From the NCBI GenBank assembly GCA_030765065.1, contig CM060986.1:72161573-72225572 (forward strand): 64,000 nucleotides of DNA. Direction: 5' to 3'. The stretch comes from Deroplatys truncata (taxonomy: Eukaryota > Arthropoda > Insecta > Mantodea > Mantidae). The notes below the pieces were generated by a model. That model made no database searches and had not been told where the DNA came from. It worked only from the letters and a program-made list of their open reading frames with translations. Positions 1,735 to 62,444 of this stretch are shown here, one piece after another; position 1 is the first letter of the stretch; every line of letters starts with the position of its first letter. The position numbers were made by a program, and so were the translations under genes.

Positions 1735-2593
1735 TCTGGTGTTCTGCATTCACGTGACTTTCTCTTCCCTCTATTGTTTATTAGCGCGTATAAAACTATT
1801 CTTACTAAAGCTTATGTTTCTATCCAATTCATTTTAATAGACAAAAACCTTTGCAGAAATAACTACATTACACATTTCGTTGTAGATTAGAAGGGGAGCA
1901 GCGATAGTCAAGTGTTTAGGAACTGAACGCCATATGCTGTATTCCATACTCTTTCCACGACATCGCGAGAAACAGCAGAATATCGACAGAGCTTTAAAAT
2001 AATGACAAGGTCTTGAAAAATTCGAACCATTAATAACGGACATCTCAGAAATGGCTTATACCACAAAAAAGTTATTTGAAATAGGATTTGTGTTTTAAAG
2101 AGATCTACATTTTTTGTATAGTACGTTTTTGTCTATCGTTTAACGTTTATCAGTTATATAAGATTACACAAAATTCCTTCCAATGAAGAGGACTTCACAG
2201 TCTATTCCCAGAAAATTCCAGATAATACATTTTATGTGTCATGCAAATAAATTTGTTATTTTAATCAAAATCGTTGGAGCAGTTTTTTAGAAAATAAAAA
2301 ATTTCGGAAAATGTTCCATATAAAGGGTAGTTAGGGTTAGAGGATTTTCTTGAAAATCTTCGTGTCACATCTTTGGAAGATACTGAACAACTCTGGTGTT
2401 TTTCGACTTTTCGTTTTTGAGTTATTCTGTTCACACACACACAGACAGCACGCATATACACGAACCTTTTTCTAAAAACACTTTTTATTTAGCAGCCCTC
2501 AAAACATATATGTCCGGTGATATCTCAACATCGATTTTTTGGGTGGAATACAATACTTTCCATACTTACTAAATATTGTAGAGAAAGTAAAAA
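1735..2593 (+). mobile_element. Helentron-like element, nearly full length
   Basis: It starts TCTGGTGTTCTG (family start TCTGATGTGTTAC) followed by GACTTTCTCT, and ends GTAGAGAAAGTAAAAA. The internal order matches other copies: the GTTTATTAG block, a GATATC-rich block, GGGTAGTTAGGG, a CA-rich tract (about 2431-2452) and the CAATACTTTCC block before the terminal hairpin. It has no coding capacity. Confidence 0.75.
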
Positions 2594-2639
2594 TAACACT
2601 TTTTAAAATAACAATGTCCGTGTCCGTGCTTTTTCTTTT

Positions 2640-3086
2640 ATTATTTTTGTCTGTCTACGAGTATCTGCCCGTAAACAGCAAAACTCAAAAACGAAATGTC
2701 GAATAAATACCAAAGATGTTACACGAAGATTTAATAAAATACCCCACTTCAAAACTACTTCTTACGTATAAAATGATTCATTATTTTTTATTTTCTCAAA
2801 AACAGCTCTAACGTTTTGATTAAAATATATATTTAAGGTAACTGTATAACAAATAAAATTTATATATTGAATTTTCTGCGAATAGCCTGTAAAATCTTCT
2901 TCATTCGGAATGAATGTTTATATTTTGGTATAGCCAATAAAGGTAACAGATAGACAGAAACTTACTACACAAGAATGATGATCTGGTTAAAATACAGTCA
3001 TTTTTCAATTAAATATTTTTTTTTGGCATTAACACTTTCCGAGTCATTCGTTTTTATTGGTTTGAATCTTCCAATACTTTATGCAT
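2640..3086 (-). mobile_element. Helentron-like family, fragment
   Basis: This is the central part of the element in reverse orientation, from the AACTCAAAAACGAAA block through the TTTCCGAG block. Neither terminus is present. A more complete reverse copy abuts it directly at 3087. Confidence 0.6.
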
Positions 3087-4139
3087 TTTTACTTTCTCTA
3101 CCAGAAACATGGTAGGTAGAGAATATTTGCACTTCACTCAAAAATTCTATATCGAGATTTCACCAGAAATACATGTTTTGAGGTCCTCTGAATACAAAAA
3201 GCGTACTTAGAAAAATGTCAATGTGTGTGTCTATGAACAGCGTAACCAAAAACGAAATGTCGAATAACTACCCAACTTGGTATTTAAGTTCAGTACCATC
3301 CAAAGATGCGACACAAAGATTTTCAAGAAAATCCCAACTTTAACTGGAACGTTTTTAGAATTTCTTTATTTTTTGAAAAAAGGCTCAAACAATCTTTATT
3401 AAAATAGCATATATTAAAGATATTTACATGACAAATAAAATGTATATGCTGAAATTTCTGGGGATAGCGTCTGATGTTCTCTTCATTCGAAAGGAAATTT
3501 ATATAATCTTGCATAATTGGTAAACGTTAAAGGATAGACGAAAACGTACTACAAACAAATTGTAGATCTCTTTAAAGTACACAGTTTATTTTAAATAACT
3601 TATATATGGTATCGGACATTTCCAAGATATCAGCTTTTAATGGTTCGAATTGTTCGATACTTAGTCATTCTTCTCAAATCCTGTGGATTTTCATCCGTTT
3701 CTTGCGATAACATGCAAAGAATATAGAATTTTAAGACCAGCATACAGCGCCCAGTTCTAAAACATTTGAGTTTCGCTATTCCCTTTGTTTCTGTAATGAA
3801 ATGTGTAATGTAGTTATTTCTGTAAAGGTTTACCTCGCTTAAAATGAAGTAGATAGGAAATAAACTTTCGTAGGATACTTTTTTTTAGTGCTAAATTTGT
3901 CGTTCGTTTTGTTCCTCCTGGTAATGAGTGGAATTTCAAAGCCAGCATACAACAATATCGCTTCAGCCTCCTGTATCCCTCCTGTACTTATAAAAAAATG
4001 TGCAACGAAGCCATTTCTGTAAACTTTTAATTCGATTAACAAGATTTAGACATAAAAATAAGTTGTCTTGTAATATTTTTAGGAAAATGTAAAAATAAAC
4101 GATAGCAAGAAGAGAAAGTCGTGTGAACGTAACACATCA
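3087..4139 (-). mobile_element. Helentron-like element, full length
   Basis: Read on the minus strand it runs from an end with GACTTTCTCT to GTAGAGAAAGTAAAAA. The hairpin beside the latter end pairs TTCTCTACC with GGTAGAGAA (about 3094-3122). An imperfect internal duplication (about 3650-3830 and 3890-4030) makes it longer than most copies. Confidence 0.75.
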
Positions 4140-4204
4140 AAATTGTTACCACACATTCGTGGGATAAAAAAGAAAAACATTATAAAAATTTGGATCTTTT
4201 GATT

Positions 4205-4500
4205 TCTCTGTCTGTGAACAACATAACTCGAACACAAAAGTCGAATAAATATCAAACTTCGTATTTAAATTCAGCATGTTCCAAAGATGTGAAACGAAGA
4301 TTTTTTCAAGAAAATCTACTGCCCCAAACTATCCTTTACATGGAAACATTTTCGTTATTTTGATTTTCTCAAAACCGTTCTAACGACGCTTACTAAAATA
4401 GCATATGTTTAAAGTGGCTCATAGTTGAATTTTCCGCGTATAGTATATGAAGTCTTCTTCTTTCGCAATAAACTATATAATTATAACCGGTGAATCATAA
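4205..4500 (-). mobile_element. Helentron-like family, fragment
   Basis: It contains the central blocks AACATAACTCGAACAC, GATTTTTTCAAGAAAATC and CCTTTACATGGAA in reverse-orientation order. Both termini are missing. Confidence 0.55.
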
Positions 4501-4954
4501 GAATGCGCACGGATATTTAAATGGCCAGAATGGCCAAACGCCTTGCATTCCTAATCTGCAATAGCTTTTGTTTTGTTTGAAACATTTTAAAGGTTGTCAT
4601 ATTTAATATCGAATACCTTTAAAAGTTTAAATTAAATCGTTTACTTTGTTTTACTGCTTTTCCTTAAATTTTCAAATAAGAGCATTTATTTGCCTTGTAT
4701 TTGTTTTAAATGGAAATTTGATAAGGGCCCAAACATTTATGTACCTGATTATTATAAAGTAATGTATTTATTTGTTTTTGATTAAGTGCATAATAAGTAA
4801 AAAACGAACTTAAACTATTTATTTTATTTAATTGTTTCACTCAAAAGTGTGTTTCATATTAAATGTTTTATTAAGCTGCTAATTTGATAACTGTAAGTGT
4901 GTAGGTTAGGGTTTGAAAGTTAAATCATAGTTTGATACATTTATTGCCACGGCC
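4501..4954. other. No recognised feature
   Basis: Very AT-rich sequence. I see no repeat match within the window and no coding signal. Confidence 0.3.
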
Positions 4955-6641: not shown

Positions 6642-7385
6642 CCCTGACGTATTACAATCACACGACTTTCTCTAGTCACCATCATTTGTTTCCATATCTT
6701 TTCTGCAAATTATTCTATATACCTTTGATTGATCATGATAAATGTGTTTCAAAATGGTTTCAATACACGTTTTGTTCAGCTACATAAAAGCATATAGAAC
6801 ACCAGGATACAGTGGAGTGTTTCAAAATCAGAGCGTTATATGCTGGCTATAATATTGCATAACTTTTGCTTCGGTTTATGAGAAGTAACAGAACTGACAT
6901 AACATTTCAAAAGTGGGTATATTGGAAAATTTAGGCCAAGAACAGAAAATATTTGTAAATGGCCAATACTACATAAAATTATGTAATGAAGTTGAATAAT
7001 TTACAAATTTCTACAAATGTTCGGTAATAAATTTGTCTATCTCTTATATTTCCTGATTGTATAAAATGCTGTTGAATTGTATAAGGATGGAGGATATTCT
7101 TTGAGACGTTTGATAAATAGAAAATAATGAAAAATGTGCCATGTAAAGGTATGGGGGGTACTTCCCGAAAATCATATATGAAATATAGTATCTATCTGAC
7201 TTTTCTTATTTTAGTTTTGATGTTCACAGACAGACATACAGAAAAAACACACAGACACACATGCATGGATCTTTTCTAAAATATGCTTTATTTAGGGTTC
7301 ATGATCTCAAAACGTGTATTTCCGGTGAAAACTCGATGCCAAATGTTTAGATGAAGTGCAATACTTGTTTTACCTACCACAGGTA
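6642..7385 (+). mobile_element. Helentron-like element, diverged
   Basis: The forward copy opens with TATTACAATCACACGACTTTCTCTAG and keeps the block order. It includes a CA-rich tract near 7230-7262 and the AAAACGTGTATTTCCGGTGAAA block. The 3' end is degraded (CTACCACAGGTACATTAT), with no clean GTAGAGAAAGT. Confidence 0.65.
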
Positions 7386-9075: not shown

Positions 9076-9316
9076 CAAATATAAAAGCAAATATTTTTTT
9101 AGAAACACGGCATTCTAAAGATTTCCAGTATCGACCTCATATCTAAACATTTTATGAAGAATTACTTTAAATACGAAACATTCGTTGTTCCTCTTATTTT
9201 GTTAAGAAAATTACAGAATTATCTCTATTTTTCCTGGAAAAGTTTGAAAAATTAATGCTAAAATAACAACTTTAAATAAAAACTTGATGCATGACTTTTA
9301 AAATACACAAAAAAAC

Positions 9317-10114
9317 CATGACTTTTCTTATATGAGCTTATTCTTCTATCTGCTTCTTGATAATCGAGATAAACTTCCATTACCATTTGCACATATTTTC
9401 CTTTTAGGTATAAGAAGGATACAACAAGCTAAAGGGGTAGTCAGACTTTTAAAAAGTGGATTGTGATGGCTTTGAAATTTCATGCTCTTTGTATGCCAAC
9501 GAGAAAAACCGAATAATGACTTTCTACATCGAGAAATCATAAGTATTTGAAAATTCAAACCAACAACAGGCAATGTCTCGGAAATGGGTAACGCACAAAA
9601 AAAAGAAAATCTTATAAATTGTATGCTTTAACGAGCCCTACGTTTTTACTTTGAACGATTCTGTCTCTTACGGTTTACCAATAATACAAAGTTCATTCCG
9701 AATAAAAAAGTATTCATGAGCTATTTCCAGAAAATTCAAGATATACGTTTTATTTGTCATGCAAATATCCTAAACATATCGTTTTTAATTAAAACGTTGG
9801 AGCAATTTTTCAGCAAATCAAAAATAACTAAAATGTTTCTATGTAAGGGGTAGTTTGGAATGGGGAGATTTTCTGAAAATCTTCGTATCGCATCCTTGGA
9901 AGATGCGACTTAAATATCAAGTTTAGTATCTAAACAACTTTTCGTTTTTGAGTTATGATGTTCAGACTCATTGACATAAACAAGGTCATTTTCCTAAAAA
10001 TGCCTTTTTAGTTTCAGGGGACCTCAAAATGTGTATTTGCACTGAAATATCAATATTGATTTTTTAGTGGAATGCAGTGCTACTTTTATAGGTAAGTAGT
10101 AGAGAAAGTAAAAA
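9317..10114 (+). mobile_element. Helentron-like element
   Basis: The forward copy opens with a damaged CATGACTTTTCTT and closes GTAGTAGAGAAAGTAAAAA. Internal blocks are in the family order, but only a short remnant of the CA-rich tract is left near 9966-9985. Confidence 0.7.
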
Positions 10115-11804: not shown

Positions 11805-12717
11805 TGAAGTAAGTTTGTTGCTTCACGTATGGAAAGCCAATTTGAAGTAGGTTGTATTGAAGGAGGAGTTGTATTGTAGTTTGACTGTTGGGGAGCCGAA
11901 CTTGAAGTAGTTGCAACCGCACGTATGGTAAAAAGTTTCCAGTAGCCTTCGCCCCAAGTTTAAAAATATTAACTTTGTATTTTTACTGTTTCATTAAATA
12001 TTATATATTTATGTTTGCCTCGGCTGCGTCAGTATTAATTTGTAGAGACACGAATCTCTTAACAAGGCGTGGTGCGGCTGAATGTAGGTTTACACAGATT
12101 ATAATTTTTACTTCACTCCTTGACACGATTTAAATAACACTTCACTGATATAGGGAGCTGTGAGATTATTTATTAATTACTTGCACTTTTTAACACGTGA
12201 ACTATTTTCGTCTCACACTGAATACTATTAAACTTCTCGAGGACCCGTCTCGAGTCCGGTTAGGAACGCTGTCTGCTAGCAACTGAATTCTGAATTTGTA
12301 CAATTTGCCCTATTTCAGCTTCTGATTGGCTATTCCTACTCCAATAGTATACTTTTATTTAACTTAAGCTTTTTTCTGGTTGTTGATTGGCTATTTTATG
12401 AACTGTTTCAAAAATTACATTATTGTTGCTCAAAGAATTACCACTAGCATTATTAAACTTTCTAATTCATTATTGCCTCAAGGTTACCTCATTGTTACCT
12501 TATTGTTAGCAACTTTTGGCCTATTATTCTCACAGCTCCTACGTTATTAAATTACATAAGATTTTCACATAACGTTATTGAACATGTACATAATAATATA
12601 AACATTACCTAATAAAATCACTGTTACATACACGTATTGCTTTAAGGAGGGCTGTTATTGAATTTATATATTATATAATTCGACTGAAATCAGTTAAGTG
12701 TTAAAAATACTGCCTCA
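11805..12717 (+). mobile_element. Solo-LTR-like element inside the hAT
   Basis: It matches the elements at 14651 and 40521 from GTTGGGGAGCCGAAC through the tandem CCAAT-box region (TGATTGGCTATT, CTCCAATAG, TTGATTGGCTATT) to ATACTGCCTCA. The 5' end carries an extra duplicated segment (TGAAGTAAG... then TGAAGTAGG...). The flanking 4-mers CAAT and AAAT agree in only three of four bases, so the exact 5' boundary is uncertain. Confidence 0.75.
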
Positions 12718-13523: not shown

Positions 13524-13849
13524 TCTGATGTGTTACACTCACATGACTTTCTCTACTCTTGTACAAACTATTTTTACAAACGCTTATTATCCATATGCTT
13601 CATGTTAATCGAGATATCGAGATGTTAATCTTATTGCTAACTTTCTTGTAGATGCAAGGGGAATTGGTAAGATTTAAGTGATAGTCAAATCCTTTAAGAG
13701 CTGGTTGCTATGTGGCGCATTCCATTCTCTTTGCATTACCAGGACAAAAAAAATGAATAACGAATTCCCATTTGAGAAAAAGTATAAGTATTGGAACATT
13801 TCAGGGAATAACAAGCAATATCTCGAAAATGGTTCACTCAACAAATATT

Positions 13850-13886
<37 letters not shown>

Positions 13887-14386
13887 TAAATTGTGTATTT
13901 TAACGCGATCTACATTTTTTGTGTAGTAAAACTTTGTCTACCTCTTATGGTTTATCAGTTATGCAAAAGTCGGTCACAATGAAGAATACTTTTGGAGACA
14001 TTCCCAGAAAATTCCAGATATACATTTTATTTGTGTATCTTAAATACATGATATTTTAATCAAAATCGTTAGAGACATTTTTGAGAAAATTAAAATTTTC
14101 GAAAAATGTTCCATGTAAAGAGTGATCTGGGGTGGGGGATTTTCTTGAAAACCTTTGTGTCGCATCTCTGGAAGATACTAAAACTAAATACCAAATTTGG
14201 TGTTTATCCAACTGTTCGTTTTTGAGTTATGCTGTTCACAGACAGACACACGGACATGTTTCCAAAAATACTTTTTTGGATTCAGGAGGCCTCAAAACAT
14301 GTATTTCCTGTGAAATCTCGGTATCGAATTTTTGGATGGAATGCAATACTACCCCTACTTACTATATGTAGTAGAGAAAGTAAAAA
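13524..14386 (+). mobile_element. Helentron-like element, full length
   Basis: It starts TCTGATGTGTTACACTCAC, then GACTTTCTCTAC, and ends GTAGAGAAAGTAAAAA. The hairpin CTACTTACTATATGTAGTAG lies directly before the 3' end. Its flanks inside the hAT show no target duplication. It carries an extra (TA)n tract and only a weak CA remnant. The 5' third is of the subfamily also seen at 18815 and 57122. Confidence 0.85.
13854..13883. repeat. (TA)n microsatellite
   Basis: About 15 uninterrupted AT units inside the Helentron-like copy. Confidence 0.95.
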
Positions 14387-14650: not shown

Positions 14651-15560
14651 TGAAGAAGGTGTATTGTAGTTCCACTGTTGGGGAGCTAAAACTTGAAGTA
14701 GTTGCAACCACGTACAATACAAAGTTTCCGGTGACCTTCGCCCCACGTTCACTTTCCGGTGCCCTCGACCCCACGATTACTAATCAACTTTGTAATTTGA
14801 ATGTTTATTTAAATATTATATTTGTATGCCTCGGCTGCGTCAGTAGTAATTTGCAGAAACACGTATCTCTTAGCAGGAGTGGTGTGGCTAAAGAATGAAG
14901 GTTTACACAAGGCTTATAATGGTATTTAACTTCTTTTTATTAACCTTTCACACGATTAAATAACACTTCACTGATATATCATACTGTAGAGCTGTGAGAT
15001 TGTTTGTTAATTTCACTTTTTAACACGTAAACTTTATTTTTATTTTCGCCGTAATGAAGTTTTGTGTCTCACACTTAACCTGTACCGTCCAAGTGCTCGG
15101 GAACGCTGCCTAGTAGTGTCTGGCTTCTACCGCTTAAATTCGTACATTTACTATATTTCACGTCTCTGATTGGCTAATTTTACTCCAATAGAATACTTTT
15201 ATTTAACTTAAGCTTTTTCTAGTTTTTGATTGGCTATTTATATACTGTTTTAAATATTATATTATTGTTCCAAGAATTATTAGTAGCATTATTAAACTTG
15301 TCAATTCATTATTGCCTCAAGGTTACCTCATTGTTAGCAACTTTCGGGTTCTATTCTCATAGCTCCCACATTGTTAAATTACGTAATACATTCACATAAC
15401 ATTATTATACATAAACATAATAATATAAACATTAATACAATGACTGTTACATACATTTTACATATTATTACATACAGATATTGCTTTAAGGCGGGCTGTT
15501 ATTATATTTTATATTATATAATTAGACTGATATTAATGAAGTGTTAAAAATGCTGCCTCA
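14651..15560 (+). mobile_element. Solo-LTR-like element (TG...CA, 4-bp duplication)
   Basis: It starts TGAAGAAGGTG and ends TGCTGCCTCA. It is flanked by perfect AAGT duplications at 14647-14650 and 15561-15564. It contains the family's conserved GTTGGGGAGC block near the start, GCCTCGGCTGCGTCAGTA in the middle, and the cluster of ATTGG/CCAAT boxes at about 15169-15230. It has no open frame. The length near 910 bp, TG...CA ends and a short fixed duplication fit a solo LTR. No internal retrotransposon sequence is present anywhere in the window to prove it. Confidence 0.8.
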
Positions 15561-18265: not shown

Positions 18266-18814
18266 GGTTTTCAACTAGTATTTCAATGAACCAAAGTCTA
18301 CGCTTACTTATTAATAGCTGATGTAATTAAATACTTAACAAACGATCAGTCTTTCATTCATCATGACAATGTTACTCATAGGCTAAATATATACGTTTTG
18401 TTTATATTAACACCAGTTATTTTTATGTTAATAACAGTTTATATTCAACGAGAAGAATTAAATTGACTTTTCTGTGGTATAATTACAGATATTTGTGGTT
18501 CTAATTTTGTGCTTTCTATCATCAAAACGGACTCTAAATATTAACCAGTCATAGCAGACATATAGTTTGATTTTACATTTCAGTTTTTAAAATGTATTTT
18601 CACTGATATATGTTGATGCGAACACTGCAAAGTCTTTCAAATGAGGAAATGTGTTATTCAACAGACAGCTGTCAAAATCAAATAAATTAACTTCCTTGTG
18701 TTTAATCATCAGTAGGTCATTACACTATAGGCATATTAAAAATGTGGGTGGTTTATTTTATTTAATGATTCGAAATTCCTGAATAAGTAAATCTAATACA
18801 GGCGAGCCGTTTCT
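18266..18814. other. No recognised feature
   Basis: AT-rich sequence without repeat or coding match. It may be LINE 5' sequence or host DNA. Confidence 0.3.
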
Positions 18815-20083
18815 TTTTACTTTCTCTACTACGTATAGTAAGTAGGGGAAGTATTGCATTCCACCCAAAAATTCGATACCGAGATTTCACCGGAAATACA
18901 CGTTTTGAGACCCCCTGAATCCAAAAAAAAGCATTTTTAGAAACATGGCCGTGTGTGTGTCTGTGTGTGTGTATGTGTGTCTGTGTGTGTGTCTGTGAAC
19001 AGCATAACTCAAAAACGAACAGTCGGATAAGCACCAAACTTGGTATTTAGGTTTAGTATCTTCCAGAGATGCGACACGAAGGTTTTCAAGAAAATCCCGC
19101 CACCCCAGACTACCCTTTACATGGAACATTTTTCGAAAATTTTAATTTTCTCAAAAATGGCTCTAACGATTTTGATTAAAATATCATATGTTTAAGATAT
19201 TGTAGGCGGCGCCGTGGCCGAGTGGTTAGACCGCTTGCCTCCCACCGAGGCGGACCGGGTTCAACCCCAGGAACCTGCATGTGGGATTTGTGGTGGACGA
19301 AGCGGCGTCTGGGCGGGTTTTCTCCGTGTTCTCCGGTTTCCCTCGCCACTCATTCCACCAATTGCTCCATCATCACCTTTCCTTTCATCCATTTCGCTTC
19401 ATCCACTTCCTTCATCCCATACCAGGCATCGGGCTGATCACCCATCCTGGATGTTCTGTCTGATCCATGAGTGTCTGCTCCTCGATGGGCCTCTGACCCC
19501 AGGCACCCGCCTGTAAGTCCTGGGGGGTATAAGTCCTACATAAGAGGAGGGTAAACAGATAATGAATGAATGAATGAATGAATGAATGTTTAAGATATTG
19601 TCATTAGAAATGAAATGTATATCTCGAATTTTCTGGGAATGTCTTCAAAAGTATTCTTCATTGTGAACGAATTTTGCATAACTGGTAAACCATAAGAGAT
19701 AGACAAAATTTTACTACACAATGTCGATCGCGTTAAAATACACAATTTATGTCATATACATTTTTATTGTTGAGTGAACCGTTTTCGAGATATTGCTTGT
19801 TATTCCCTTAAATTTTCCAATACTTATACTTTTTCTCAAATTCGTTATTCATTTTTTTTATGTCCTGGACATGCAAAGAGAATGGAATGCGCCGCATAGC
19901 AACCAGCGTTAAAATATTTGACTATCGCTTAAAACCTATCATATTCCCCTTGCATCTACAAGAAAATTACCAATAAGATTGACATCTCGATATCTCGATT
20001 AACATGAAGCATATGGAGAATAGGCGTTTGTAAAAATAGGTTGTACAAGAGTAGAGAAAGTCATGTGAGTGTAACACATCAGA
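18815..20083 (-). mobile_element. Helentron-like element, full length, split by a SINE
   Basis: On the minus strand it begins TCTGATGTGTTACACTCAC with GACTTTCTCTAC and ends in the CTACTTACTATACGTAGTAG hairpin plus GAGAAAGTAAAAA. It holds a (TG)n tract at about 18951-18995. The SINE at 19204-19587 sits inside with a perfect duplication. Without the SINE the length is about 870 bp. Confidence 0.88.
19204..19587 (+). mobile_element. tRNA-derived SINE with (GAAT)n tail
   Basis: The head contains box A TGGCCGAGTGGTTA (19215-19228) and box B GGTTCAACCCC (19258-19268), close to leucine/serine-type tRNAs. A pyrimidine-rich body follows, and the tail is (AATG)n. The 14-bp target duplication GTTTAAGATATTGT is perfect at 19190-19203 and 19588-19601. 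It is a single copy of this group in the window. It inserted after the surrounding Helentron-like copy. Confidence 0.93.
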
Positions 20084-20354: not shown

Positions 20355-20645
20355 GTCGTCCTCCGTGGTATAGTGGTTACCATGCTTGCCTTTAGTTCCC
20401 GAGGTCGCGGGTTTAAACCCGGCGGAGGGCGATGGATTTTTTCGGGCGTAAAAATCCTTAGCATGGCTTCCTTCGGAAGAGAAGTAAAGCCGGGGATCCC
20501 GTGTCGTAGATTTACGGCATGTAAAAGAATCTCAAGCCTGATAAACAGACCTCTGAGTGAAATTACCGGTCTTTCATGCCCAATATAAAATTGGACGCTA
20601 ATGACCACAGCAGTTAAAGAGCGTCCATAAATAAAAAAAACTCAA
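20355..20645 (+). mobile_element. tRNA-derived SINE, group A, full length
   Basis: The head has box A TGGTATAGTGGTTA (20366-20379) and box B GGTTTAAACCC (20410-20420), most like aspartate/glycine/glutamate tRNAs. The body includes TTCGGGCGTAAAAATCC and GAGCGTCCATAAATAAA. The tail is A-rich. A perfect 12-bp target duplication TTACTATTCGAT lies at 20343-20354 and 20646-20657. Truncated relatives occur at 27216, 30555 and 59690. Confidence 0.93.
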
Positions 20646-21384: not shown

Positions 21385-21454
21385 CAATGTTTGATTTCTA
21401 GTTTCTGTAGCTATCTATCTGCAAGCTCAGGAACTTAGTTACATGAGATTTTCT

Positions 21455-22063
21455 TTTTCTAGCACCTAGTTGTAGTAGGTAGAGGAGGTTTCGCATTCCA
21501 CCCAAAAATTTAATATCGAGATTTCATAGGAAATATACATTTTGAGGTCCCATAAATCTAAGAAAGCTTTTTTAAAAAGGATCCGCATATATGTATGAGT
21601 CTGGCTGCCTGTACGTGAATAGCATAACTCAAAAATGAATTGTCTGATAAATGCCAAACTAGATATTTAAGTTCAGCATCTTGCAAGATGCAACAAAAAC
21701 ATTTTTAAAGAAAATCCTCCCAACTCAAACCAACCTTTATAAGAAAAATTTTTTTTTATTTTTCATTTTCTCAAATATGGTTCTAATAATTTTGATTAAA
21801 ATGCATACTATGCATAAGATATTTGCAATACAAATAAAATGTATATATTGAATTTTCTGCGAATATTCTATGAAGTTCTCTTCATTCGGAATAATTTTTT
21901 TTATAATTGTTAAAGCATAAGTGATAAACAAAAACTTACTATACAAATAATGTAGATCACATTACAGCACACAACTTATGTCAAATAAATTTTTTTGTGG
22001 ATTTACCATTTCCGAGATATTGGTTGTTATTGCTTTGAATTTGTCAAAACTTATAACTGTTTA
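21455..22063 (-). mobile_element. Helentron-like element, 5'-truncated
   Basis: The reverse copy starts with a degraded TTTTTCTAGCACC terminus and runs to the TTTCCGAGATATTGG block. There it is cut by the next copy, which begins at 22065 in the same orientation. Confidence 0.65.
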
Positions 22064-22064
22064 C

Positions 22065-22943
22065 TTTCTCTACTACACGTATCTAGTATGGACAGAAGGT
22101 ATTGCATTCCACCCAAAAATTCAATATCGTTATTTCACCGAAAATACATGTTTTCAGGCCCCCGAAAACAAATAAAGTGTTTTAGAAACGTGCGTGAGTG
22201 AACAACATAACTCAAAACCGAAAAGTCGAATAAAATGCAAACTTGGTACTTAGGCTCAATATCTTCCAAAGTTGCGACACGAAGATTTTCAAGAAAATCC
22301 CACCAACCCAAACTACCCTTTACATCATACAATTTTCGAAATTTTTTATTTTCTAAAAATATGGCTCTAACGGCTTTCATTAAAATACCATATATGAAGG
22401 ATACATTCGTATTTACATGACAAATAAAACGTATATATTGAATTTTCTGAGAATAGCCTGTGAAGTCGTCTTCAATCGGAAGGACTTTTGTATAATATTG
22501 TATAACTGGTAAACGTTAAGGAATAGACGAAAACTACTACACAAAAAATGTAATTTCTTTAAAACACACAATTTATAAAAGGCAACGCACAATAAGCTTT
22601 TTGTGGCATGAGCCATTTCTGAGATATCCGGTATTAAAGGTTCGAATTGTTCATTTCTTGACCATTCTCTTAAAAATCCTATCAATATTCAGCCGTCTCT
22701 CGCGATTGCATGGAAACAGCATGGAATTTTAAGGCCAGCATTTAGCGTCCAGTTCCTAAACATTTGACTATCGCTGTTCCCTTTGTATCTTTAACGAAAT
22801 GTGTAATGTAGGTATTTCTGGAAAGGTTTATTTTAAATAAAATGATGTAGATAGAAACGTAAGCTTTAGTAAGAATAGTTTGTATACCTACCCTCTAATA
22901 AACGATAGAGGGTAGAGGAATCATGTGAATGTATCACATCAGA
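22065..22943 (-). mobile_element. Helentron-like element, full length
   Basis: On the minus strand it runs from TCTGATGTGATAC to GTAGTAGAGAAAGTAAA. The (TG)n position holds only a short GTGCGTGAGTG. The neighbouring copy on its left is in the same orientation. Confidence 0.8.
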
Positions 22944-22956
22944 TATTTTCTTCTTG

Positions 22957-23066
22957 ATTAACATGAAATAGAAAAATAAGCTTTTGTAAGAATAGTTTGT
23001 AGAAAGTGTAAAAAAAAAAAGAAACTTTTGTAGCTAAAGAAAATCATGTAGGTGTAACATATCAGG
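22957..23066 (-). mobile_element. Extra copy of the Helentron-like 5' terminus
   Basis: The stretch from GATTAACATGAAATAG to GTGTAACATATCAG repeats the terminal approx. 110 bases of the element at 22065-22943 in the same orientation, directly beyond its end. Confidence 0.65.
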
Positions 23067-24067: not shown

Positions 24068-24885
24068 TCTTGTGTTACATTCATACAACTTTCTCTAGCC
24101 TCTATCGTTTATTAGTGGGTGTACAAATTATTCTTTTGAACGTTTATTTTACTATCTACTTCATTTTAATCGAGGTAAACATTTGCAGAAATAGCTATAT
24201 AACACATTTCGTTAGGGTACATAGGGTACAGTGATAGTCAAATGCTTAAGAACTGGACGCTCCATACCGTTTCCATACAATCGCGAGAAACAACTGAAAA
24301 TCAACGAAATTTATAAAGAATGACCAAGTATTGAACAAATCGAACATTAATAACGGATATCTCGGAAATGATTGACGCCTCAAAAATGATTATTTGAAAT
24401 AAATTGTGTGTTTTAAAGAGATCTACGAGTTTTGTGTAGTATGTTCTCGTCTATCGCTTAACGTTTACATGTTATTATACAAGATTATACTAAATTCCTT
24501 CCGAACGAAAAGGACTTTACAGGCTATTTTCAGAACATTCAATATATGCATTTTATTTTTCATAAATATCTTTAATATATGGTATTTTAATCAAAATCTT
24601 TAGAGCCATATTTTAGAAAATGAAAATTTTCAACAAAAAAAAAAGTTCCATGTAGAGGATAGGGTTGGGAGATACTGAACTTAAATACTAGTTTCGTACT
24701 TATCCAACTTTTTATTTTTGAGTTATGCTGTTCACAGACACACACGCGCGCGCGCGCGCGGACGTTACCAAAAATGCTTTATTTGGATTCAGGGTGCTTC
24801 AAAACACGTATTTTCGGTGAAATCTTGGTATGGTGGAATGCAATACCTTCTCTACCTACTATGCCCGTCGTAGAGAAAGTAAAAA
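24068..24885 (+). mobile_element. Helentron-like element, full length
   Basis: It starts TCTTGTGTTACATTC with AACTTTCTCTAG and ends GTCGTAGAGAAAGTAAAAA. The usual tandem CA tract here is ACACACGCGCGCGC, listed separately. A short stretch after GGGTTGGGAG is deleted. Confidence 0.8.
24738..24761. repeat. Alternating CA/CG tract
   Basis: An uninterrupted purine-pyrimidine alternation with eight CG steps, at the microsatellite position of the Helentron-like family. Confidence 0.9.
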
Positions 24886-39217: not shown

Positions 39218-39350
39218 TTTTACTTTCTCTACTACTTACCTATAGTAAGTAAAGGAAGTATTGCATTCCACACAAAAGTTCAATAGCAACATTTCACTGG
39301 AAATATGCATTTTGAGACACTCCCTGTATTCAAAAGGGCACTTTCAAACA
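39218..39350 (-). mobile_element. Helentron-like family, 3' end fragment
   Basis: The minus strand ends CTACTTACTATAGGTAAGTAG then TAGAGAAAGTAAAAA. Only the last approx. 130 bases of the element are present. Confidence 0.75.
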
Positions 39351-40520: not shown

Positions 40521-41420
40521 TGAAGTAGTTTGTATTGTAGTTCAACTGTTGGGGAGCCGAACTTGAAGTAGTTGCAACAGCACGTATAGTAAACAGTTTC
40601 CGGTAGCCTTCATCCCAAATGTATTTTTACTGTTTCTTTAAATATTAAATATTTATGTTTGCCTCGGCTGCGTCAGTATTTGTTAGAGACACGTTTCTCG
40701 TAGGCAGGGTTGTGATACGACTAAGAATGTAGGCTTACACAGATTATAATTTTACTTCACTTCTTTTATTAATACTTGATACCATTTAAATAACACATCA
40801 CTGATATAGAGAGCTCTGAGATTCTTTTTATTAATTAATTACACTTTTTAACACGTAAACGTATTTTTCGTCTCACACGAATACATATTATATTTCTTGA
40901 GGACGCACAAGCAACACATCCAATTATGAGCACTATCTGCAGGCACACGTCTGGTTATGAGCACTGTTTGGAAGCAACTGAATTGATTTCAACCGTTTAA
41001 ACTTGTAAATTTCTGTATTTCAAGTCTCTGATTGGCTAATCCTACTCCAATAGAATACCTGCATTTAACTAAAGCTTTTTCTGGTTGTTGATTGTCTATT
41101 TTTAAACTGTCTCAAAATTACATTATTGCTTCCAAGAATCACAAGTAACATTTAAACTCTCAAACTCATTATTGTCTCTAGGTTACCTTATTGTTAGCAA
41201 CGTTTAACTTATTATTCTCACAGCTCCTACATTATTAAATTACGTAATGCATTCACATAACATTATTGAACATGTTTACAATAATATAAGCATATGCAAT
41301 GACTGTTACATACATTTTACAAATTATTACATACAACATTGCTTCAAGTTGGGCTGTTATTGAATTTACATATTATATAATTTGACTAAAACCATTTTAA
41401 GTGTTAAAAATACAGCCTCA
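40521..41420 (+). mobile_element. Solo-LTR-like element (TG...CA, 4-bp duplication)
   Basis: It starts TGAAGTAGTTTG, ends TACAGCCTCA and is flanked by perfect ATTT at 40517-40520 and 41421-41424. It includes GTTGGGGAGCCGAAC, GCCTCGGCTGCGTCAGTA and the ATTGG/CCAAT cluster near 41030-41095. It is inserted in the RNase H region of the flanking LINE. Confidence 0.85.
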
Positions 41421-42877: not shown

Positions 42878-43018
42878 AAGATTGTATGTGTGCAAGCATG
42901 CAAGGGTGTTTTTCTGAAAATACTCTATTTTTTTTCAGAGGCCTCAAAAACATGCATTTGGGTGGAATACAGTACCTACCTTCTCTACCAACAAAGTACG
43001 TGGTAGAGAAAGTAAAAA
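42878..43018 (+). mobile_element. Helentron-like family, 3' end fragment
   Basis: It ends GGTAGAGAAAGTAAAAA. The terminal hairpin TCTCTACC...GGTAGAGA has an 8-bp stem (about 42982-43009). Confidence 0.75.
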
Positions 43019-43019
43019 T

Positions 43020-43377
43020 GTAAGTCATTAATGCACACAATTTATGTAGAATTCAATTTTTGTGGTACCTATTAACATTTCCAAGATGTTGTGTATTATT
43101 GGTTTGAATTTTCAAATACTTATGTTTTTTCAAGTGGTAAGTTGCTATTTTGTTTATCTGTTGGTCATGTAAAGTGCATGGAATTACAAAGTCATTAATA
43201 ACAAACCCCTTTCTAAATATCTGAGTATCACTTTAGGCTATAGTATCTACTATGAATGTGCAAATGTGTAATGAAAGTTTACCTCGATTGATAAGAAGTA
43301 GGTGGAAGAATAAGATTCTGTAAGAATAGTTTGTAGAAGAGTGACTAGAGAAAGTCATGTGAATGCAACACATCAGA
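43020..43377 (-). mobile_element. Helentron-like family, 5' end fragment
   Basis: On the minus strand it starts TCTGATGTGTTGCATTCAC with GACTTTCTCTAG. It abuts the forward 3' end at 43018, giving a tail-to-tail join. Confidence 0.7.
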
Positions 43378-45846: not shown

Positions 45847-47058
45847 TTTTTACTTTCTCATCTACATATTTATAGTAAGTAGAGGAAGTACTGTATTCCA
45901 CCAAAAATTCAAGGTCAAGATATCACCAGAAATACATATTTTGAGGCCTTCTGAACACAAAAAGAGTGTTTTTAGTACAAGATTTGAGTATGTGTGTGTC
46001 TTTGAATAGCTTACTCAAAATGAATAGTCGGTTAAATACCAAAAGTAAAGGTAAAGGTGCATATCACTGAGGGGCCCCCGGAACCAGGGCAGAGCACCAC
46101 AGCAGGTCAGTCAGCCATGCTTCCAACATCCCTGCCCACAAGCCACCAACCTCCAGGATCCCCCGGGGCGGAGCCCCATGCTGAGGAGAGACCTAACTTA
46201 GTGGTACCACAGTGATGCCAGGGAAGAAACCTTTACAGAACGTAAGCCCTGCCCAGCTGCAACCCGCCGAACACCGTCGTCTGATCCTACCACCCTGAAA
46301 CAGATGACAAGGAACAGGAAATGAGAGGAAGATGAAGACCACAGCATTCGCCTGGGCTAGAGTGGATGATCACTGGGATAGATCCTGGGACCTCCTAAAT
46401 GCGGGCCACAGTCATAGCCGCCTGAGCCATTCCACTCGATGGTTAAATACCAAACTTAGTTATTTAACTTCATTATCTTACAAAGATACAACATGTTACA
46501 TTGAAGACTTTCAAGAAAATTCACCCATCCCAAACTACTTTTTATATGGAAATTCTTTTTATATTTTTTATTTTATCAATATGGCTCCAGTGATGTTAAT
46601 TAAAATAGTTTATACTTCAGATGTTTATACAAGAACTGAAATATATAACTTGAATTTTCTGGGAACAGCCTGTGAAGCCTTCTTCTTTCAAAAGGAACAT
46701 TGTATGATTTTATATAACAGGTAAACCATAAGAAATAGACAAAAACATACTACACAAAAAATTTATATATCCTTAAAACACACAATTTATTTTAAACAAC
46801 TGTTTCTGTGTTATCAGCCATTTCTGAGATATCCATTATTATTGGTTTGAATGTTTAATGCTTTGTAATTCTCTTTAAGTGATGTTGTTATTCAATTGTT
46901 TGTTGCAAAGTCATGGAAAAAGTATGGAATTTCAAGGGCAACATATATGGACTAGGTTTTACACATCTGACTATTGAATAAATTTCCTCTATCCTCCTTG
47001 TACCTACAAAAAATGTGCAATGAAAGTATACCTGCAAAGGTTTATTTTGATTAGTGGA
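45847..47058 (-). mobile_element. Helentron-like element split by a SINE
   Basis: On the minus strand the 3' end reads CTACTTACTATAAATATGTAG then ATGAGAAAGTAAAAA. The 5' terminus is lost near 47058. The SINE at 46044-46440 sits inside with perfect duplications. Only a short GTGTGTG remains at the microsatellite position. Confidence 0.8.
46044..46440 (-). mobile_element. tRNA-derived SINE, group B-like
   Basis: On the minus strand the head reads ATCGAGTGGAATGGCTCAGG then, about 35 bases on, GTCCCAGGATCTATCCC (degenerate box B). The body shares TTTCAGGGTGG and TTCCCTGGCATCA with the 38180 copy. The tail is ACCTTTACCTTTAC. The 14-bp duplication GGTTAAATACCAAA is perfect at 46030-46043 and 46441-46454. 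Confidence 0.93.
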
Positions 47059-47604
47059 GCATTCTCTAGAAACAGGGACAAGACACTTAAAATTTCAAAA
47101 TGAAATATGCTAATATTTTGTATTGTATTTTAATACACAATGCAAATGGGGTATTCTTTATGTTTACAAATAACTTTTTAGTTGCAGTGTTGAACAACCT
47201 GATTTTTAAAATTACTGTCATTGTCAACATTCATTGTATTTTAGAAGTTACATTTGACTATGAGATAACAGTTTGTTGTAACAGTGAAGTAAGTGCTGTT
47301 TTAGTTCTGATATCTTTGGTAACGTCCTAAATAACTGACTACATGCTAAACTATTAAACTACATGTTTATTAAGAGCATTTAGTTAATTGTGCAGGTATT
47401 TTTGTTGTCCTATATATGACATGAAACAGTTCACTTTTTAAATCATACATGTTATTTGTAGCATTTAAATCTTAATTCAGCAGCTGTAAAGCAAAGATAT
47501 AATGCTGTCCACAATGAAATATTTCCACTATTTTAAGTTCTGTATTTTAAGGATTTATAAACTCTTCTTGTCCCATATGTAACACTTATTTTACAGGTTG
47601 TGAA
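47059..47604. other. No recognised feature
   Basis: AT-rich, with one 76-codon frame (47100-47330) of hydrophobic, low-complexity character and no match. Confidence 0.3.
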
Positions 47605-54000: not shown

Positions 54001-54099
54001 TAAAGCTGTGATTCTTTAATTTTTAAGTGCAAAGAAGGTGAAGGGCTCCTTCACTCTCATCATTCCAAAAACCATCACTGCTCTGTAGTAAGATTCTGT

Positions 54100-54582
54100 C
54101 TCTTTCTTATGTTTTAACAATTATACAAAAATCATTCAGAATGAAGAGGACCTTGTAGGCTATTCCTGGAAAATTCAATATATATACATTTTATTTGTCA
54201 TGCAAAGTTTATTAAACAAATGGTCTTTTAATCACAATCATTAGAGCCACTTAGGAGAAAATAAAAATAATGAAACATTTTCGATATAAAGGGTAGTTTG
54301 GGTTGAGGGATATTCTTGAAAATCTTCGTATTACAACCTTGAAGATGCTGAACTACCAATTTTGGTATTTGAACAACTTTTTGTTTCTGAGCTACGCTGT
54401 TCACAGACCAAACATGGATATTTTTGTAATTTTTGTTACCACCGCCACCGCCGCCACTACTACTATTCAGGCAGCCATAAAACATTTCCAGTGAAGTGGT
54501 GCTTCCAGTGAAATTTTGGTATCAAATTTTTGAGTGGAACGCACTGCTTCCTCTACTCACTAAGTTGTAGAGGAAGTAAAAA
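54100..54582 (+). mobile_element. Helentron-like element, 5'-truncated
   Basis: It covers the second half of the family to GTTGTAGAGGAAGTAAAAAA. At the microsatellite position a GCC/ACC triplet run (about 54438-54466) replaces the (TG)n tract. Confidence 0.7.
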
Positions 54583-57121: not shown

Positions 57122-57254
57122 TTTTTACTTTCTCTACTACGTATAGTAAGTAGTGGACGTATTGTATTCCACCCAAAAATTCGATACCGAGATTTCACCG
57201 GAAATACATGTTTTGAGACCCCCTAAATCCAAAAAAAGCATTTTTGGAAACATG

Positions 57255-57290
<36 letters not shown>

Positions 57291-57964
57291 CAGCATAACT
57301 CAGAAACGAACAGTCAGATAAACACCAAACTTGGTATTTAGGTTCAGTATCTTCCAGAGATGCGACACGAAGGTTTTCAAAAAAAATCCCCCACCCCAGA
57401 TTACCCGTTACATGGAACATTTTTCGAAAATTTTAATTTTCTCAAAAATGGCTCTAACGATTTTGATTAAAATATCATATGTTTAAGATATTTTCATAAC
57501 AAAGAAATGTATATCTCGAATTTTCTGGGAATGTCTCCAAAAGTATTCTTCATTGTGAGTGACTTTTGCATAACTGGTAAACCATAAGAGAGAGACAAAA
57601 TTTTACTACACAAAAATGTAGATCGCGTTAAAATACACAATTTATATCATATAGTTTTTTTTTTGAGTGAACCATTTTCGAGATATTCCTTGTTATTCCC
57701 TTAAATTTTCCAATACTTATACTTTTTCTCAAATTCGTTATTCATTTTTTATGTCCTGGATATGCAAAGAGAATGGAATGCGCCACATAGCAACCAGCAC
57801 TTAAAAGATTTGTCTATCGCTTAAACCTACCATATTCCCCTTGCACCTTCAAGAAAATTAGCAATAAGATTAACATCTCGATTAACATGAAGCATATGGA
57901 GAATAAGCGTTTGTAAAAATAGTTTGTACAAGAGTAGAGAAAGTCATGTGAGTAACACATCAGA
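57122..57964 (-). mobile_element. Helentron-like element, full length
   Basis: On the minus strand it runs from TCTGATGTGTTACTCAC and GACTTTCTCTAC to CTACTTACTATACGTAGTAG and AGAAAGTAAAAA. (TG)n lies at 57258-57288. Closely related to 13524-14386 and 18815-20083. Confidence 0.9.
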
Positions 57965-57970
57965 TTTTTT

Positions 57971-58191
57971 TTGTCCTGGTAATGCAAAGAAAATGGAATA
58001 CTCCACATAGCAATCAGCTCTTAAAATATTTGACTATAGCTTAAAGCTTACGAATTCCCCCTGCATCTACAAGAAAATTAGCAATAAGATTAACATCTCG
58101 ATATCTCGATTAACATGAAGCATATGGAGAATAAGCGTTTGTAAACATAGTTTGTACAAGAGTAGAGAAAGTCATGTGAGTGTAACACAGA
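57971..58191 (-). mobile_element. Tandem extra 5' terminal segment of the same element
   Basis: It repeats about 220 terminal bases of 57122-57964 (from the TGTCCTGG block to GTGAGTGTAACACAGA) in the same orientation, directly beyond its end. Similarity by eye is above 90%. Confidence 0.85.
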
Positions 58192-58316
58192 TTTTTTATT
58201 CAGTATTTAGGTAGGCATCATGTTTTAGCATAGTACATTTTTCACATGTAATTTCTGAAATTTTCATTTGTAAGCCTTGTGTATATATGACTGTTATCTT
58301 CTAACAATATTGTGTC

Positions 58317-58546
58317 ATGGACCTGGGAAAGTTCTTTAGCTAAAGTTATGCCAGAAAAATCTTGTTTCCTCGCAAGCAACTTTCAGAGGAGTGAAGCCGT
58401 CTTTGTTTATTATTGTTTAATGGACCTGGGAAAGTTCTTTAGCTAAAGTTATGCCATAAAAATCTTGTTTCCTCGCAAGCAACTTTCAGAGGAGTGAAGC
58501 CGTCTTTGTTTATTGCACCGTTAGGGGTATCCATTGTGTATTTGCA
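58317..58546 (-). pseudogene. Ankyrin-repeat-like fragment with 103-bp tandem duplication
   Basis: The minus strand reads INKDGFTPLKVACEETRFLW, matching the ankyrin consensus DGxTPLHxAxxxG, with LAKELSQ-like residues in the shifted frame. The unit occurs twice (58317-58413 and 58420-58514), offset by 103 bp and differing by one base over about 95. Because 103 is not divisible by three, the frame is lost between copies, and a stop follows each. The upstream residues NCKYTMDTPNGA also appear coding. It may be an exon fragment of a host ankyrin gene. Confidence 0.55.
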
Positions 58547-59689: not shown

Positions 59690-59935
59690 ATGCTAACCTC
59701 TTGTTTCCGAAGTCAGGGGTTTAAATGGCTAATATATTCGGGCGTAAAAATCCTTAGCACGGCTTCCTTCGGAAGGGAAGTAAAGCCGGTGGTTCCGTGT
59801 TGTAGATTTAAGGCACGTTAAAGTACTTCAAGCCTGATAAAGAGGCCTCTGAGCAAAATTTCCGGTCTTTTACGCCGAATATAGAATGGGGCGCTAAGAA
59901 CTATAGTAGTTAAAGAGTGTCCATAAATAAACTCA
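59690..59935 (+). mobile_element. SINE group A, decayed head
   Basis: The body from TTCGGGCGTAAAAATCC through GGCTTCCTTCGGAAGGGAAG to GTCCATAAATAAA matches the 20355 copy. The tRNA part is recognisable only as GTACCATGCTAACCTC and GGGGTTTAAAT. Confidence 0.85.
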
Positions 59936-61613
59936 ATTTTAAAGAAGTAGCTGCGATAAAGGAAGAAACTCATACCGCAGTTAAATAAACTGTCAGATGA
60001 AAGCTTCAGTTTAGAAAACAAACCATACCCTGGATTGAATCTTACATTGGCTCCAAATGCTTCAGTCGCATCCTTGACTAATGGCATATTTTAGAAGACA
60101 TTTATTAAAGCATACAGATTTTTTTTAAACCTCAGGCTGAGCCTGTTACTGAGGGCAGAATGGCAAATCCTCGAAGATTTCCAGTCAGATTATCAGATAT
60201 TAAATTCACATAACCATTTACATGCTTGACGAGCTTATTTTGTTATAACTTCTTTCTGAAGTAGAAGGGCTCTCCGTCCAAACTATAACTATATTTATAG
60301 ACAACAGTTTCCCGAGTTGCGGGTAGGTGTAACAGATTTTTGTCGACTGTCAGTAATGGGTATCTAAAGACCCGATAAGTACTCCTGTGCATAGAAAAAT
60401 GTAAATAAAATGTTCAATCGCTAGGAATACTGCTTGGTGGGTGTTGACAATATTGTACTAAATTTTACTGAGGGTGTAGGTTTGCGTTGAAAAGGATTGG
60501 GAATCCATTTTCGGTGTTCAACCAACACAGCTAAAGCACTTTATGCAATGTATGGTTACACTATACACTTACTTTGTGTTTTATCGTTTTCGTTGACGCA
60601 TGTATAAAGCTGCTAGGCTTTGTAGTAAACTAACTTCTCATATCTTTCTTAATGCTCACAATAAAATAAATTAATGCTGTTCTCAGAAGCTGACGATGAG
60701 AAAAATTCCTTCGTCAAAATTATTGCGTTATTTCGTTATATTTATTAACGCGTTTTCGTTTCTTTTCTTTTAATATTATTATATTATTATGTTTATTAAC
60801 ACAATGACTGTGCATTTAGTTGTCTTTAAATAACGGATATTTCCTTTCTTATGGTTTAACAATGTTTAAACTTCTTGGTCATATCGTGGGGTTACTTTAA
60901 GTTCGTGGGTTCACCTGAGTCAGTATATACCAGACAGATGACGTTAGTTGCATAGTCGCCCTCCTGCGAAATCAGCTTGAGAAACTTGATGACGAAATTA
61001 GTTGCGTAGTCGCTTTAACATACCCTTTGGGGAGGTGCTATCAAGTGGAACTTCTGAGTATTCTTTGGCTGTGCATGTAGCCATTGTGATGCTGATAAGC
61101 AAATGACCTTTGTGTCGCCTTTCTGCACCTCTGCTTAGGTAACTTATTGATAGACGGCTTTAGTTCTGCTGTCTCTCACCCTCCTGTCGGGGAAGGGATC
61201 CGGACACCTATTGAAAAACAGCATTTTTTCAAAGAATGTATATTTTAAATTAATTATAAAGTTATACACTCAATCACATCTACAATATCCATTATTTTTC
61301 TATTTAAGGCCATTAGTAATTAATTACACATAGTTAAAATCAAAGTGTTAGGCTGCAGTCATATGCAGTAGTGGGAGGATAGTCCCGGACGTTTAAAGAA
61401 CCACTTGTTTCCTCTTCACACACATATCACAGTTATAATAACATGGTTAACCCAACCTTTGCAACTGAACACTGAATCTATATAGTCTTCCTCGAAATCT
61501 TCTACGCATATTAAACATGTGGTTTCACATTTTGATGCCCCTGGTTACTTGAATCCATGACCTTGCAATTCAAGCTTATATTGCATTTTTGTGACATACT
61601 GGCTTTTTACTTT
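59936..61613. other. No firmly recognised feature
   Basis: A minus-strand frame at 59938-60087 encodes ATEAFGANVRFNPGYGLFSK, faintly like a sushi/CCP domain, but without the cysteines it cannot be called. The rest is unassigned. Confidence 0.3.
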
Positions 61614-62444
61614 CTCTACTACGTATAGTAGATAAGTAGGGGAAGTATTGCATTCAATCTAAAATTTTGATCTCGAGATTTCACCAGAAATAAATGTTTT
61701 AAAGCACTCTGAATCCAAATAAAGCATTTTTGGAAACATATCCGTGTGTGTATCTGTCTGTGAACAGCATAACTCAAAAACGAACAGTCGGATGATTAGC
61801 AAACTGGGTATTTGAGTCTAGTATCTTCTACGGATGCAACACGAAGATTTTCAAGAAAATCCCCCCACCCTAACTACCCTTTACATGGAACATTCTTCGA
61901 AAATTTTGATTTTCTAAAAACTGGCTCTGACGATTTTGGTTAAAATACATATATGAAAGATATTTACATGACAAATAAAATGTATATTTTGAATTTCCTG
62001 GGGAAAACCTAGAAAGTCCTCTTCATTCGGAAGGAATGTTGCATAACTTGTAAACGTTAAGCAATGGACGAAAACGAATCAAACAAAAAGCTTAGATCTC
62101 TTTAAAAACACAATTAACTTAAAATTATTTTTGTGGTGAGATATCCGTTATTAAAGGTTCGAATTCTTCTATACTTGTAACTCTAAAGTCCCATCGATTT
62201 TCAGGTGTTTCTTGCACGGAAACAATATAGAATTTTAAGGCCAGTATATAGCGTCCAGTTAAACATTTGACTAGGCTGTTCCCTTTGTATTTATAACGAA
62301 ATGTGTAATGTAGCTAACTGGCTATTTTTGCAAATGTTTGTTTGGATTAAATGTAGTAAATAGAAAAATAAGCTTCAGTAAGAATAGTTTGTATATCCAC
62401 TAATAAAGATAGAGGGTAGAGAAAGTCATGCGAATACACATCAG
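61614..62444 (-). mobile_element. Helentron-like element, full length
   Basis: On the minus strand it runs from TCTGATGTGTATTCGCATG and ACTTTCTCTAC to ACTATACGTAGTAGAGAAAG then TAAAAA. A short TGTGTGTATCTGTCTG marks the microsatellite position. Confidence 0.88.

Follow-up and report, generated by a model that had tools for sequence, protein, structure and literature searches.

A very numerous family of DINE-1-type elements and its putative Helentron partner in the genome of the mantis Deroplatys truncata

The window analyzed here is a stretch of 64,000 nucleotides from the mantis Deroplatys truncata (assembly GCA_030765065.1, contig CM060986.1, positions 72,161,573 to 72,225,572 of the forward strand). 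Copies and fragments of one repeat family cover 21.2% of it. The repeats appear to be HINEs (Helentron-associated interspersed elements), non-autonomous elements of the DINE-1 kind, and we found in the same genome a putative autonomous Helentron that has both of their termini. The parts of one copy, including its subterminal inverted repeats (subTIRs) and a further inverted repeat (IR), are as follows.

57122 to 57964, plus strand: full non-autonomous copy (HINE) of 843 bp, young subfamily; model positions 1-873, both ends read
57122 to 57126, plus strand: left (5') terminal TTTTT
57127 to 57137, plus strand: 5' subTIR ACTTTCTCTAC, identical in the autonomous copies
57149 to 57160, plus strand: IR arm AGTAGTGGACGT, pairing with the 5' subTIR
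57258 to 57288, plus strand: (GT)n microsatellite of the left module
57934 to 57944, plus strand: 3' subTIR GTAGAGAAAGT
57946 to 57960, plus strand: 3' stem-loop ATGTG..CACAT, followed by CAGA at 57961-57964
57965 to 57972, plus strand: target T-run (T8) past the right end
57966 to 58189, plus strand: another right part of the family (model 634-868, by profile), directly after this copy

Reverse-complemented with respect to a preliminary description of the window, a full copy starts with TTTTT and ACTTTCTCTAC, followed by the IR arm and frequently by a GT-rich array; its other end consists of GTAGAGAAAGT, the ATGTG...CACAT stem-loop and CAGA. As judged from the sequence, this reversed order is the one published for DINE-1 elements and HINEs (PMC4067079; PMC2374699). 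In those elements the 5' subTIR lies at the end or a few nucleotides from it, while the other end carries the 3' subTIR and then a stem-loop; DINE-1 also has a second IR, partly complementary to the 5' subTIR, and a GTCY-rich microsatellite. Two observations establish the true orientation: the reading frame of the autonomous copy runs that way, and right ends are located downstream of Rep matches on the same strand (both described below). The ends assigned in the preliminary description therefore have to be exchanged. What it calls the 5' end, TCTGATGTG..., corresponds on the complementary strand to the true 3' end (3' subTIR, stem-loop and CAGA), and its 3' hairpin is formed by pairing of the 5' subTIR with the IR. 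The corrected orientation decides which hairpin is the terminator. The Helentron/DINE-1 class proposed there was right, with subTIRs, IR, stem-loop, microsatellite and T-run insertion all found, and the ATGTG/CACAT terminal pairing is present as well.

SubTIRs were found at both ends. We observed ACTTTCTCTAC exactly in 34 of 57 distinct left ends and GTAGAGAAAGT exactly, at a fixed offset, in 14 of 59 distinct right ends; copies such as the one at 57122 miss the fixed offset because of small indels. The second IR makes at least 8 of 11 pairs with the 5' subTIR in 50 of the 57 left ends, while the stem-loop directly 3' of the 3' subTIR has 4 or 5 of its 5 pairs in 52 of the 59 right ends. GT-rich arrays form the left-module microsatellite at 18951-18997, 36135-36222 and 57258-57288, and in some copies the repeat finder lists none. 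The stretch around the microsatellite presumably resembles the Drosophila core. The family does not display the marks of canonical Helitrons (5' TC, 3' CTRR, insertion between A and T), nor those of miniature inverted-repeat transposable elements (MITEs) moved by a DDE transposase (terminal inverted repeats, fixed duplication), though for the latter a pure-T duplication is not strictly excluded.

About twenty copies and fragments of about 0.85 kb had been reported for the window. We found 27 matches with a profile built from five window copies and 29 with a profile built from 30 copies. Over 288 kb, the five-copy profile detected 79 left ends, 75 right ends and 34 copies with both, the latter varying in length from 773 to 950 bp with a median of 861 bp. 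Coverage by the 30-copy profile was 81,815 of 288,128 bases, compared to 60 bases in a reversed-sequence control; since this control is nearly empty, the family is not a product of chance. Counted genome-wide, an exact 16-base left end occurred 219,782 times (13 for its reversed control), a 32-base left end of the young subfamily 114,368 times (control 0) and a 33-base right end 123,458 times (control 0). The reported size and high copy number thus hold. So do the shared terminal motifs, with the 11-mer and its complement near them in the window where they had been placed. The motif GTAGAGAAAGTAAAAA occurs in the window 11 times exactly and 15 times at up to 2 mismatches; for TCTGATGTGTTAC there are 4 exact occurrences and 11 at up to 2 mismatches, some of the latter probably by chance. 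The other copies and fragments in the window, as located by profile, are these.

374 to 580, minus strand: left-end fragment
1735 to 2593, minus strand: full copy
2597 to 3079, plus strand: internal fragment (model 120-600) just before the copy at 3086
3086 to 4141, plus strand: composite copy with its left end at 3086, model 1-823 and then 604-872 (a second, partial right part)
4207 to 4503, plus strand: internal fragment (model 144-466)
6644 to 7380, minus strand: two fragments, a right part (6644-7096) and a left part (7098-7380)
9301 to 10114, minus strand: partial copy with left end (model 1-818)
13524 to 14386, minus strand: full copy, with an AT microsatellite at 13854-13883
18814 to 20083, plus strand: full copy, ends read, split by a 382-bp insert (19204-19585) resembling a short interspersed nuclear element (SINE)
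22058 to 22943, plus strand: full copy of an older-looking group, flanked by family parts (left 21450-22053, right 22947-23065)
24071 to 24885, minus strand: nearly full copy (model 1-868)
35223 to 35439, minus strand: fragment (model 121-379)
35973 to 36918, plus strand: full copy of the CTACC/GGTAG type, ends read
39217 to 39370, plus strand: left-end fragment
42878 to 43018, minus strand: left-end fragment, CTACC/GGTAG
43014 to 43377, plus strand: right-end fragment
45847 to 46058, plus strand: left-end fragment
46434 to 47081, plus strand: internal fragment
54064 to 54582, minus strand: partial copy with left end (model 1-491)
61604 to 62445, plus strand: full copy

A partner encoding Rep and helicase between the same termini had been proposed as something to look for, and such an element was found. 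We searched the genome with Helitron_like_N (PF14214); 150 of 291 candidates were scored, therefore the counts are lower bounds. There were at least 152 matches, nearly all of those listed being carried by contigs C1-C16, and 18 of the matches listed lie in open frames of 2,108 to 2,543 amino acids. One long-frame copy, on C9, was examined over 13 kb, and three further copies were sampled at both sides. The frame of the C9 copy (in sample L029) has 2,324 amino acids from stop to stop, with the first methionine at residue 38, and carries the domains Helitron_like_N, PIF1, Pif1_2B and DUF6570. Its last 267 amino acids, scanned alone, match the endonuclease family Exo_endo_phos_2 (PF14529) at 27.8 bits against a cut-off of 27.4. 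In the protein (P0001), VEFQMRGSPHEH places a serine between the glycine and the proline of the HUH motif (GSP), and this serine is diagnostic of Helentrons (PMC4067079).

The C9 copy has both ends of the family in the direction of its frame, the left at L030:622 and the right at L029:8006-8038. At the left, the alignment of the autonomous copies L031 and L033 (99.7%) begins with the left T5 and does not reach further outward; the sample of the C8 copy begins inside the element, with the left end outside the sample. At the right, the sampled ends of four autonomous copies are identical through CAGA and then continue into differing flanks, each starting with 6-8 T. The exact 37-base right end of the autonomous element occurs 186 times genome-wide. 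Among the Rep matches listed on C1-C8, 24 of 75 have an exact right end 4.8-6.3 kb downstream on the same strand; for those spanning profile positions 8-190 the fraction is 19 of 22. For 66 of the 75, no right end lies within 12 kb upstream or on the opposite strand, and the 9 weakest have no exact right end nearby. Non-autonomous and autonomous copies have in common the left 652 bp (best identity 96.2%) and, at the right, exactly the last 33 bp (93.9-97.0% in the 12 matches listed). The family thus shares both termini with what is, by its predicted protein, an autonomous Helentron of the same genome.

In the preliminary orientation the element does start with TC, and another, mostly broken class of PF14214 matches is present in the genome; both would suit a canonical Helitron (5' TC, 3' CTRR, insertion between A and T). 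The coding frame, however, runs the opposite way, there is no CTRR end, and subTIRs and an IR are present. Both the endonuclease match and the GSP signature are characteristic of Helentrons, and family ends stand beside Rep matches in the other orientation only. A canonical Helitron is thus hardly credible.

We also observed three peculiarities of the autonomous element. An N-terminal domain (L029:240-938) matches Herpes_teg_N at 42.9 bits, and its matches to solved tegument-type proteases are weak (E 0.003 and 0.017); deubiquitinase domains of this type are known in Helentrons (PMC9741609). A run of charged repeats of 21 amino acids occupies about L029:1030-1990 of the transposase frame; in other copies, open-frame lengths of 2261, 2345, 2387 and 2408 differ from 2324 by multiples of 21, and further lengths do not. 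Finally, a second left end lies about 0.63-0.66 kb inside the autonomous left module (L031:129-1521, L030:622-1958), as if a non-autonomous copy had inserted there and then lost its right end.

Empty sites, for which an insertion between T and T without duplication had been expected, were found; further matches to joined flanks gave poor or ambiguous alignments and were set aside. In L035, a complete non-autonomous copy is nested in an autonomous copy. The empty site reads GTA-T8-CTATA in L030, L031 and L033, and the filled one GTA-T6-ACTTTC...CAGA-T7-CTATA. If the left T5 is counted as part of the element, this is an insertion between T and T with no gain or loss; if it is counted as target, it is a 5-T duplication. 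The filled site in L018 (T5 + T7) compares to paralogues with T7 (L019) or T8 (another stretch of L018, and L024). With the left T5 as the element's own, these sites agree with the expectation, and with the earlier remark that no target duplication is visible.

The other way of counting is that of a MITE with ends ACTTTC...CAGA, moved by a DDE transposase and flanked by a TTTTT target-site duplication, and pure T-run sites cannot separate a 5-T duplication from a 5-T element end. Nevertheless, we consider such an element very improbable. The ends are not terminal inverted repeats, and the left T5 is steadier than the right flank, with T5 in 58 of 67 left ends compared to 33 of 59 right flanks (p = 1.5e-4). 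This favors a T5 owned by the element, because a duplication would start equal on both sides. One site, with T6 at the left, T4 at the right and T5 when empty, argues directly against a 5-T duplication. Neither of these two lines is final. The partner that was found carries Rep, PIF1 and endonuclease domains, and a Helentron with both ends largely refutes a DDE origin. On this evidence the MITE was rejected, no search aimed at a DDE element with these ends having been made; the canonical Helitron was rejected on the evidence given above.

The targets often lie within the family itself. Among autonomous copies, at least two (L031 and L033) have family sequence on the left by profile, and the C8 copy has it on the right by eye. 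Over the 288 kb, flanks fall within family sequence for 22 of 63 left and 18 of 56 right distinct ends of at least 100 bits, while 568 of 1,401 T- or A-runs of at least 5 in 184 kb are already within the family. A special preference for self-nesting was therefore rejected, the nesting of flanks not being above the availability of T-runs.

The variants of the left stem reported earlier are present, CTACT/AGTAG in the copies at 57122, 14386 and 18814, and CTACC/GGTAG at 3086, 35973 and 43018. The claim that they reflect a compensatory change fared less well. From the 57 distinct left ends, 7 with fewer than 8 pairs were dropped; in the 50 usable ones, pair 12 was T-A in 28, C-G in 7, T-G in 1 and non-standard in 14. 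The association at this pair has a permutation p of 0.012, uncorrected for kinship. Pairing over the whole left stem is 10.32 compared to 7.81 in letter-shuffled arms, but it is not above that of arms swapped between copies (10.16, maximum 10.35). The variants are thus one two-state change between subfamilies, weakly supported as covariation and with no broad covariation signal. Broad covariation of either hairpin was rejected, since neither exceeds its arm-swap controls.

When folded, one representative per stem type forms a single stem across the whole subTIR on the coding strand (z of -2.6 and -3.9), and on the non-coding strand of the young representative the full left stem does not fold. 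The subTIR arm is nearly constant. Its partner arm is variable, and most of the differences are T-G-compatible and fall at pairs 3, 4, 5 and 7. A constant arm with a drifting partner fits recognition of the subTIR sequence itself. In the table of stem pairs, T-G and G-T cells hold 82 cases compared to 19 in C-A and A-C cells; without pairs 3, 4, 5 and 7 the numbers are 13 and 19. As the T-G excess disappears with these pairs, strand asymmetry as a general rule was rejected.

Taken together, the sequences make it highly probable (about 0.96 by our estimate) that the repeats are HINEs of the DINE-1 kind and that they are mobilized in trans by an autonomous Helentron, whose gene is present unbroken in this genome. 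By analogy with the known Helitron pathway, the HUH Rep would nick at the left T5, and the helicase would unwind one strand as far as the right end. Copying would stop at a point marked by the 3' stem-loop and CAGA, after which a T-run would receive the copied strand. Protein binding is the probable role of the left subTIR, whose hairpin is likely to form on the strand of the coding sequence. Two bursts, at divergences of about 0-10% and 15-25%, would have built the present load.

Several observations weigh against this explanation. At E 0.001, a scan of the whole 2,324-amino-acid protein does not list the endonuclease family. The autonomous copy read showed no RPA gene; its longest other open stretch, outside the main frame and its repeat stretch, has 103 amino acids (no profile search was made). 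The arms of the 3' stem pair no better within than between copies (4.41 compared to 4.33, maximum 4.44), and the 3' stem-loop is no more stable than shuffled sequences (z of -0.2 and -1.1). The strand asymmetry of the left stem depends on about four subfamily-level sites. As to the target, the T5 comparison retains duplicated loci and is restricted to ends of at least 100 bits, which excludes 12 of 79 at the left and 19 of 78 at the right, while the site with T6, T4 and T5 relies on a paralogue of 87% identity, two others (about 81%) differing at the site. A 5-bp TTTTT duplication is hard to exclude, because pure T-runs hide it.

We also estimated the amount of the family in the genome (4,289,915,091 bases in total). 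Direct coverage was 25% of the 184 kb examined, and 27.6% in 12 stretches of 10 kb not chosen for content (bootstrap 16-40%), 8 of which adjoin the window. Because the pooled sample has twice the mean 16-mer density, the amount was scaled by genome-wide exact counts. Roughly, the pooled estimates run from 0.51 Gb by the 16-mer to 0.64 Gb by the 33-mer, whose count includes a tandem array, i.e. 12-15% of the genome; two subsets of the sample taken alone scatter from 0.27 to 0.84 Gb.

The array lies near the start of C1 (G000:C1:20,512-119,394; sample L038). Its right ends are mostly about 3,409 bp apart, and the single unit read holds a full copy of the family. Such an array, with about 3.4 kb from one unit to the next and the element inside the unit read, is what one might expect if the dispersed copies were units of a satellite spread by recombination, not by transposition. 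The sharp ends of the copies, their differing flanks and the clean empty sites speak against such an origin, which we regard as improbable in the extreme.

Divergence looks bimodal. Out of 78 matches, 18 were below 10%, 5 at 10-15%, 46 at 15-25% and 9 above. The reference was a rough consensus for each of two groups, which a single motif separates; only nine copies make up the older one. A recent and an ancient Helitron burst have been reported for Deroplatys truncata (PMC12908712), and the two bursts match this distribution. The terms Helentron and DINE-1 have zero occurrences in the available text of that paper. Very probably, the family is the reported Helitron burst, now identified to family and enzyme.

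The kind of element is already known. HINEs and Helentrons of Metaseiulus occidentalis, Culex and Drosophila (PMC4067079) have the same arrangement of subTIRs, a 3' stem-loop and insertion into T-runs without change of the site. They likewise have HINE ends in common with a Rep/helicase/endonuclease element, a PF14529-type endonuclease and the diagnostic GSP. Those systems differ in the letters of the subTIRs and have far fewer copies than the mantis family. The mite HINEs lack a DINE-1-type IR pairing with the subTIR, whereas the mantis family has one; on the other hand, the mite Helentron has an RPA frame, and none was seen in the mantis autonomous copy.

In 12 Drosophila species (PMC2374699), DINE-1 shows the same order of 5' subTIR, partly complementary IR and microsatellite near the left end, the same 3' subTIR followed by a stem-loop, and TT insertion. 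Its subTIR has 13 bp compared to 11 in the mantis, and the mantis copies read have no central tandem array. For D. yakuba, 5,424 block A hits were counted, compared to the 219,782 exact 16-mers here, which is a different measure; the D. yakuba figure was the highest met in the literature consulted, and higher ones may exist. The Cg_HINE of the Pacific oyster (PMC7492417) has the same left module (subTIR, IR, microsatellite), a right module of subTIR and palindrome, and subTIRs of 11-12 bp; it differs by a satellite-like central array, none of which was seen in the mantis copies.

A query with the subTIR letters as literature text returned no transposon paper among titles and the starts of abstracts, and in the open-licence literature, which does not include Repbase and Dfam, no earlier account of the family was found. 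An Rfam scan at gathering scores gave no match in the window or in L038. We conclude that this HINE family, together with its Helentron, is new and that its abundance is unusual. Here, one and the same genome holds a very numerous non-autonomous family and autonomous copies that are nearly identical, several of which have unbroken frames. Helentrons appear to have received much less experimental work than canonical Helitrons, and such pairs are needed to test how Helentrons cut, end and insert.

A more far-reaching picture is tentative, and we think it somewhat doubtful as a whole. It would be the largest HINE family yet described, with one 11-bp subTIR unchanged and its inverted partner drifting through T-G-tolerant changes. 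Two bursts would have supplied about 0.5-0.65 Gb, leaving a pool with only 186 exact autonomous right ends, and the family would serve as its own target through T-runs. If so, the unchanged subTIR and the strand on which the hairpin folds would mark the strand handled by the machinery.

The window contains other repeats. The SINE-like insert inside the copy at 18814-20083 (19188-19601) has a tRNA-like head (GTGGCCGAGTGGTTAGA ... GGTTCAACCCC), an (AATG)n tail and a 16-base target duplication ATGTTTAAGATATTGT; ARAGORN called no tRNA in it. Another dispersed repeat of about 250 bp has four copies, at 2-197, 12477-12717, 15304-15560 and 41165-41419. A third family is present in three copies of 65-85% identity (20436-20635, 27234-27433 and 59732-59931), and at 58308-58514 a 103-bp unit occurs twice head-to-tail with 97% matches. 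A mitochondrial-type COX1 from the genome reads as a protein of an insect. Elsewhere in the genome, contig C16 (above 672 Mb, perhaps the X) carries many mitochondrial COX1-like insertions, some of them clustered.

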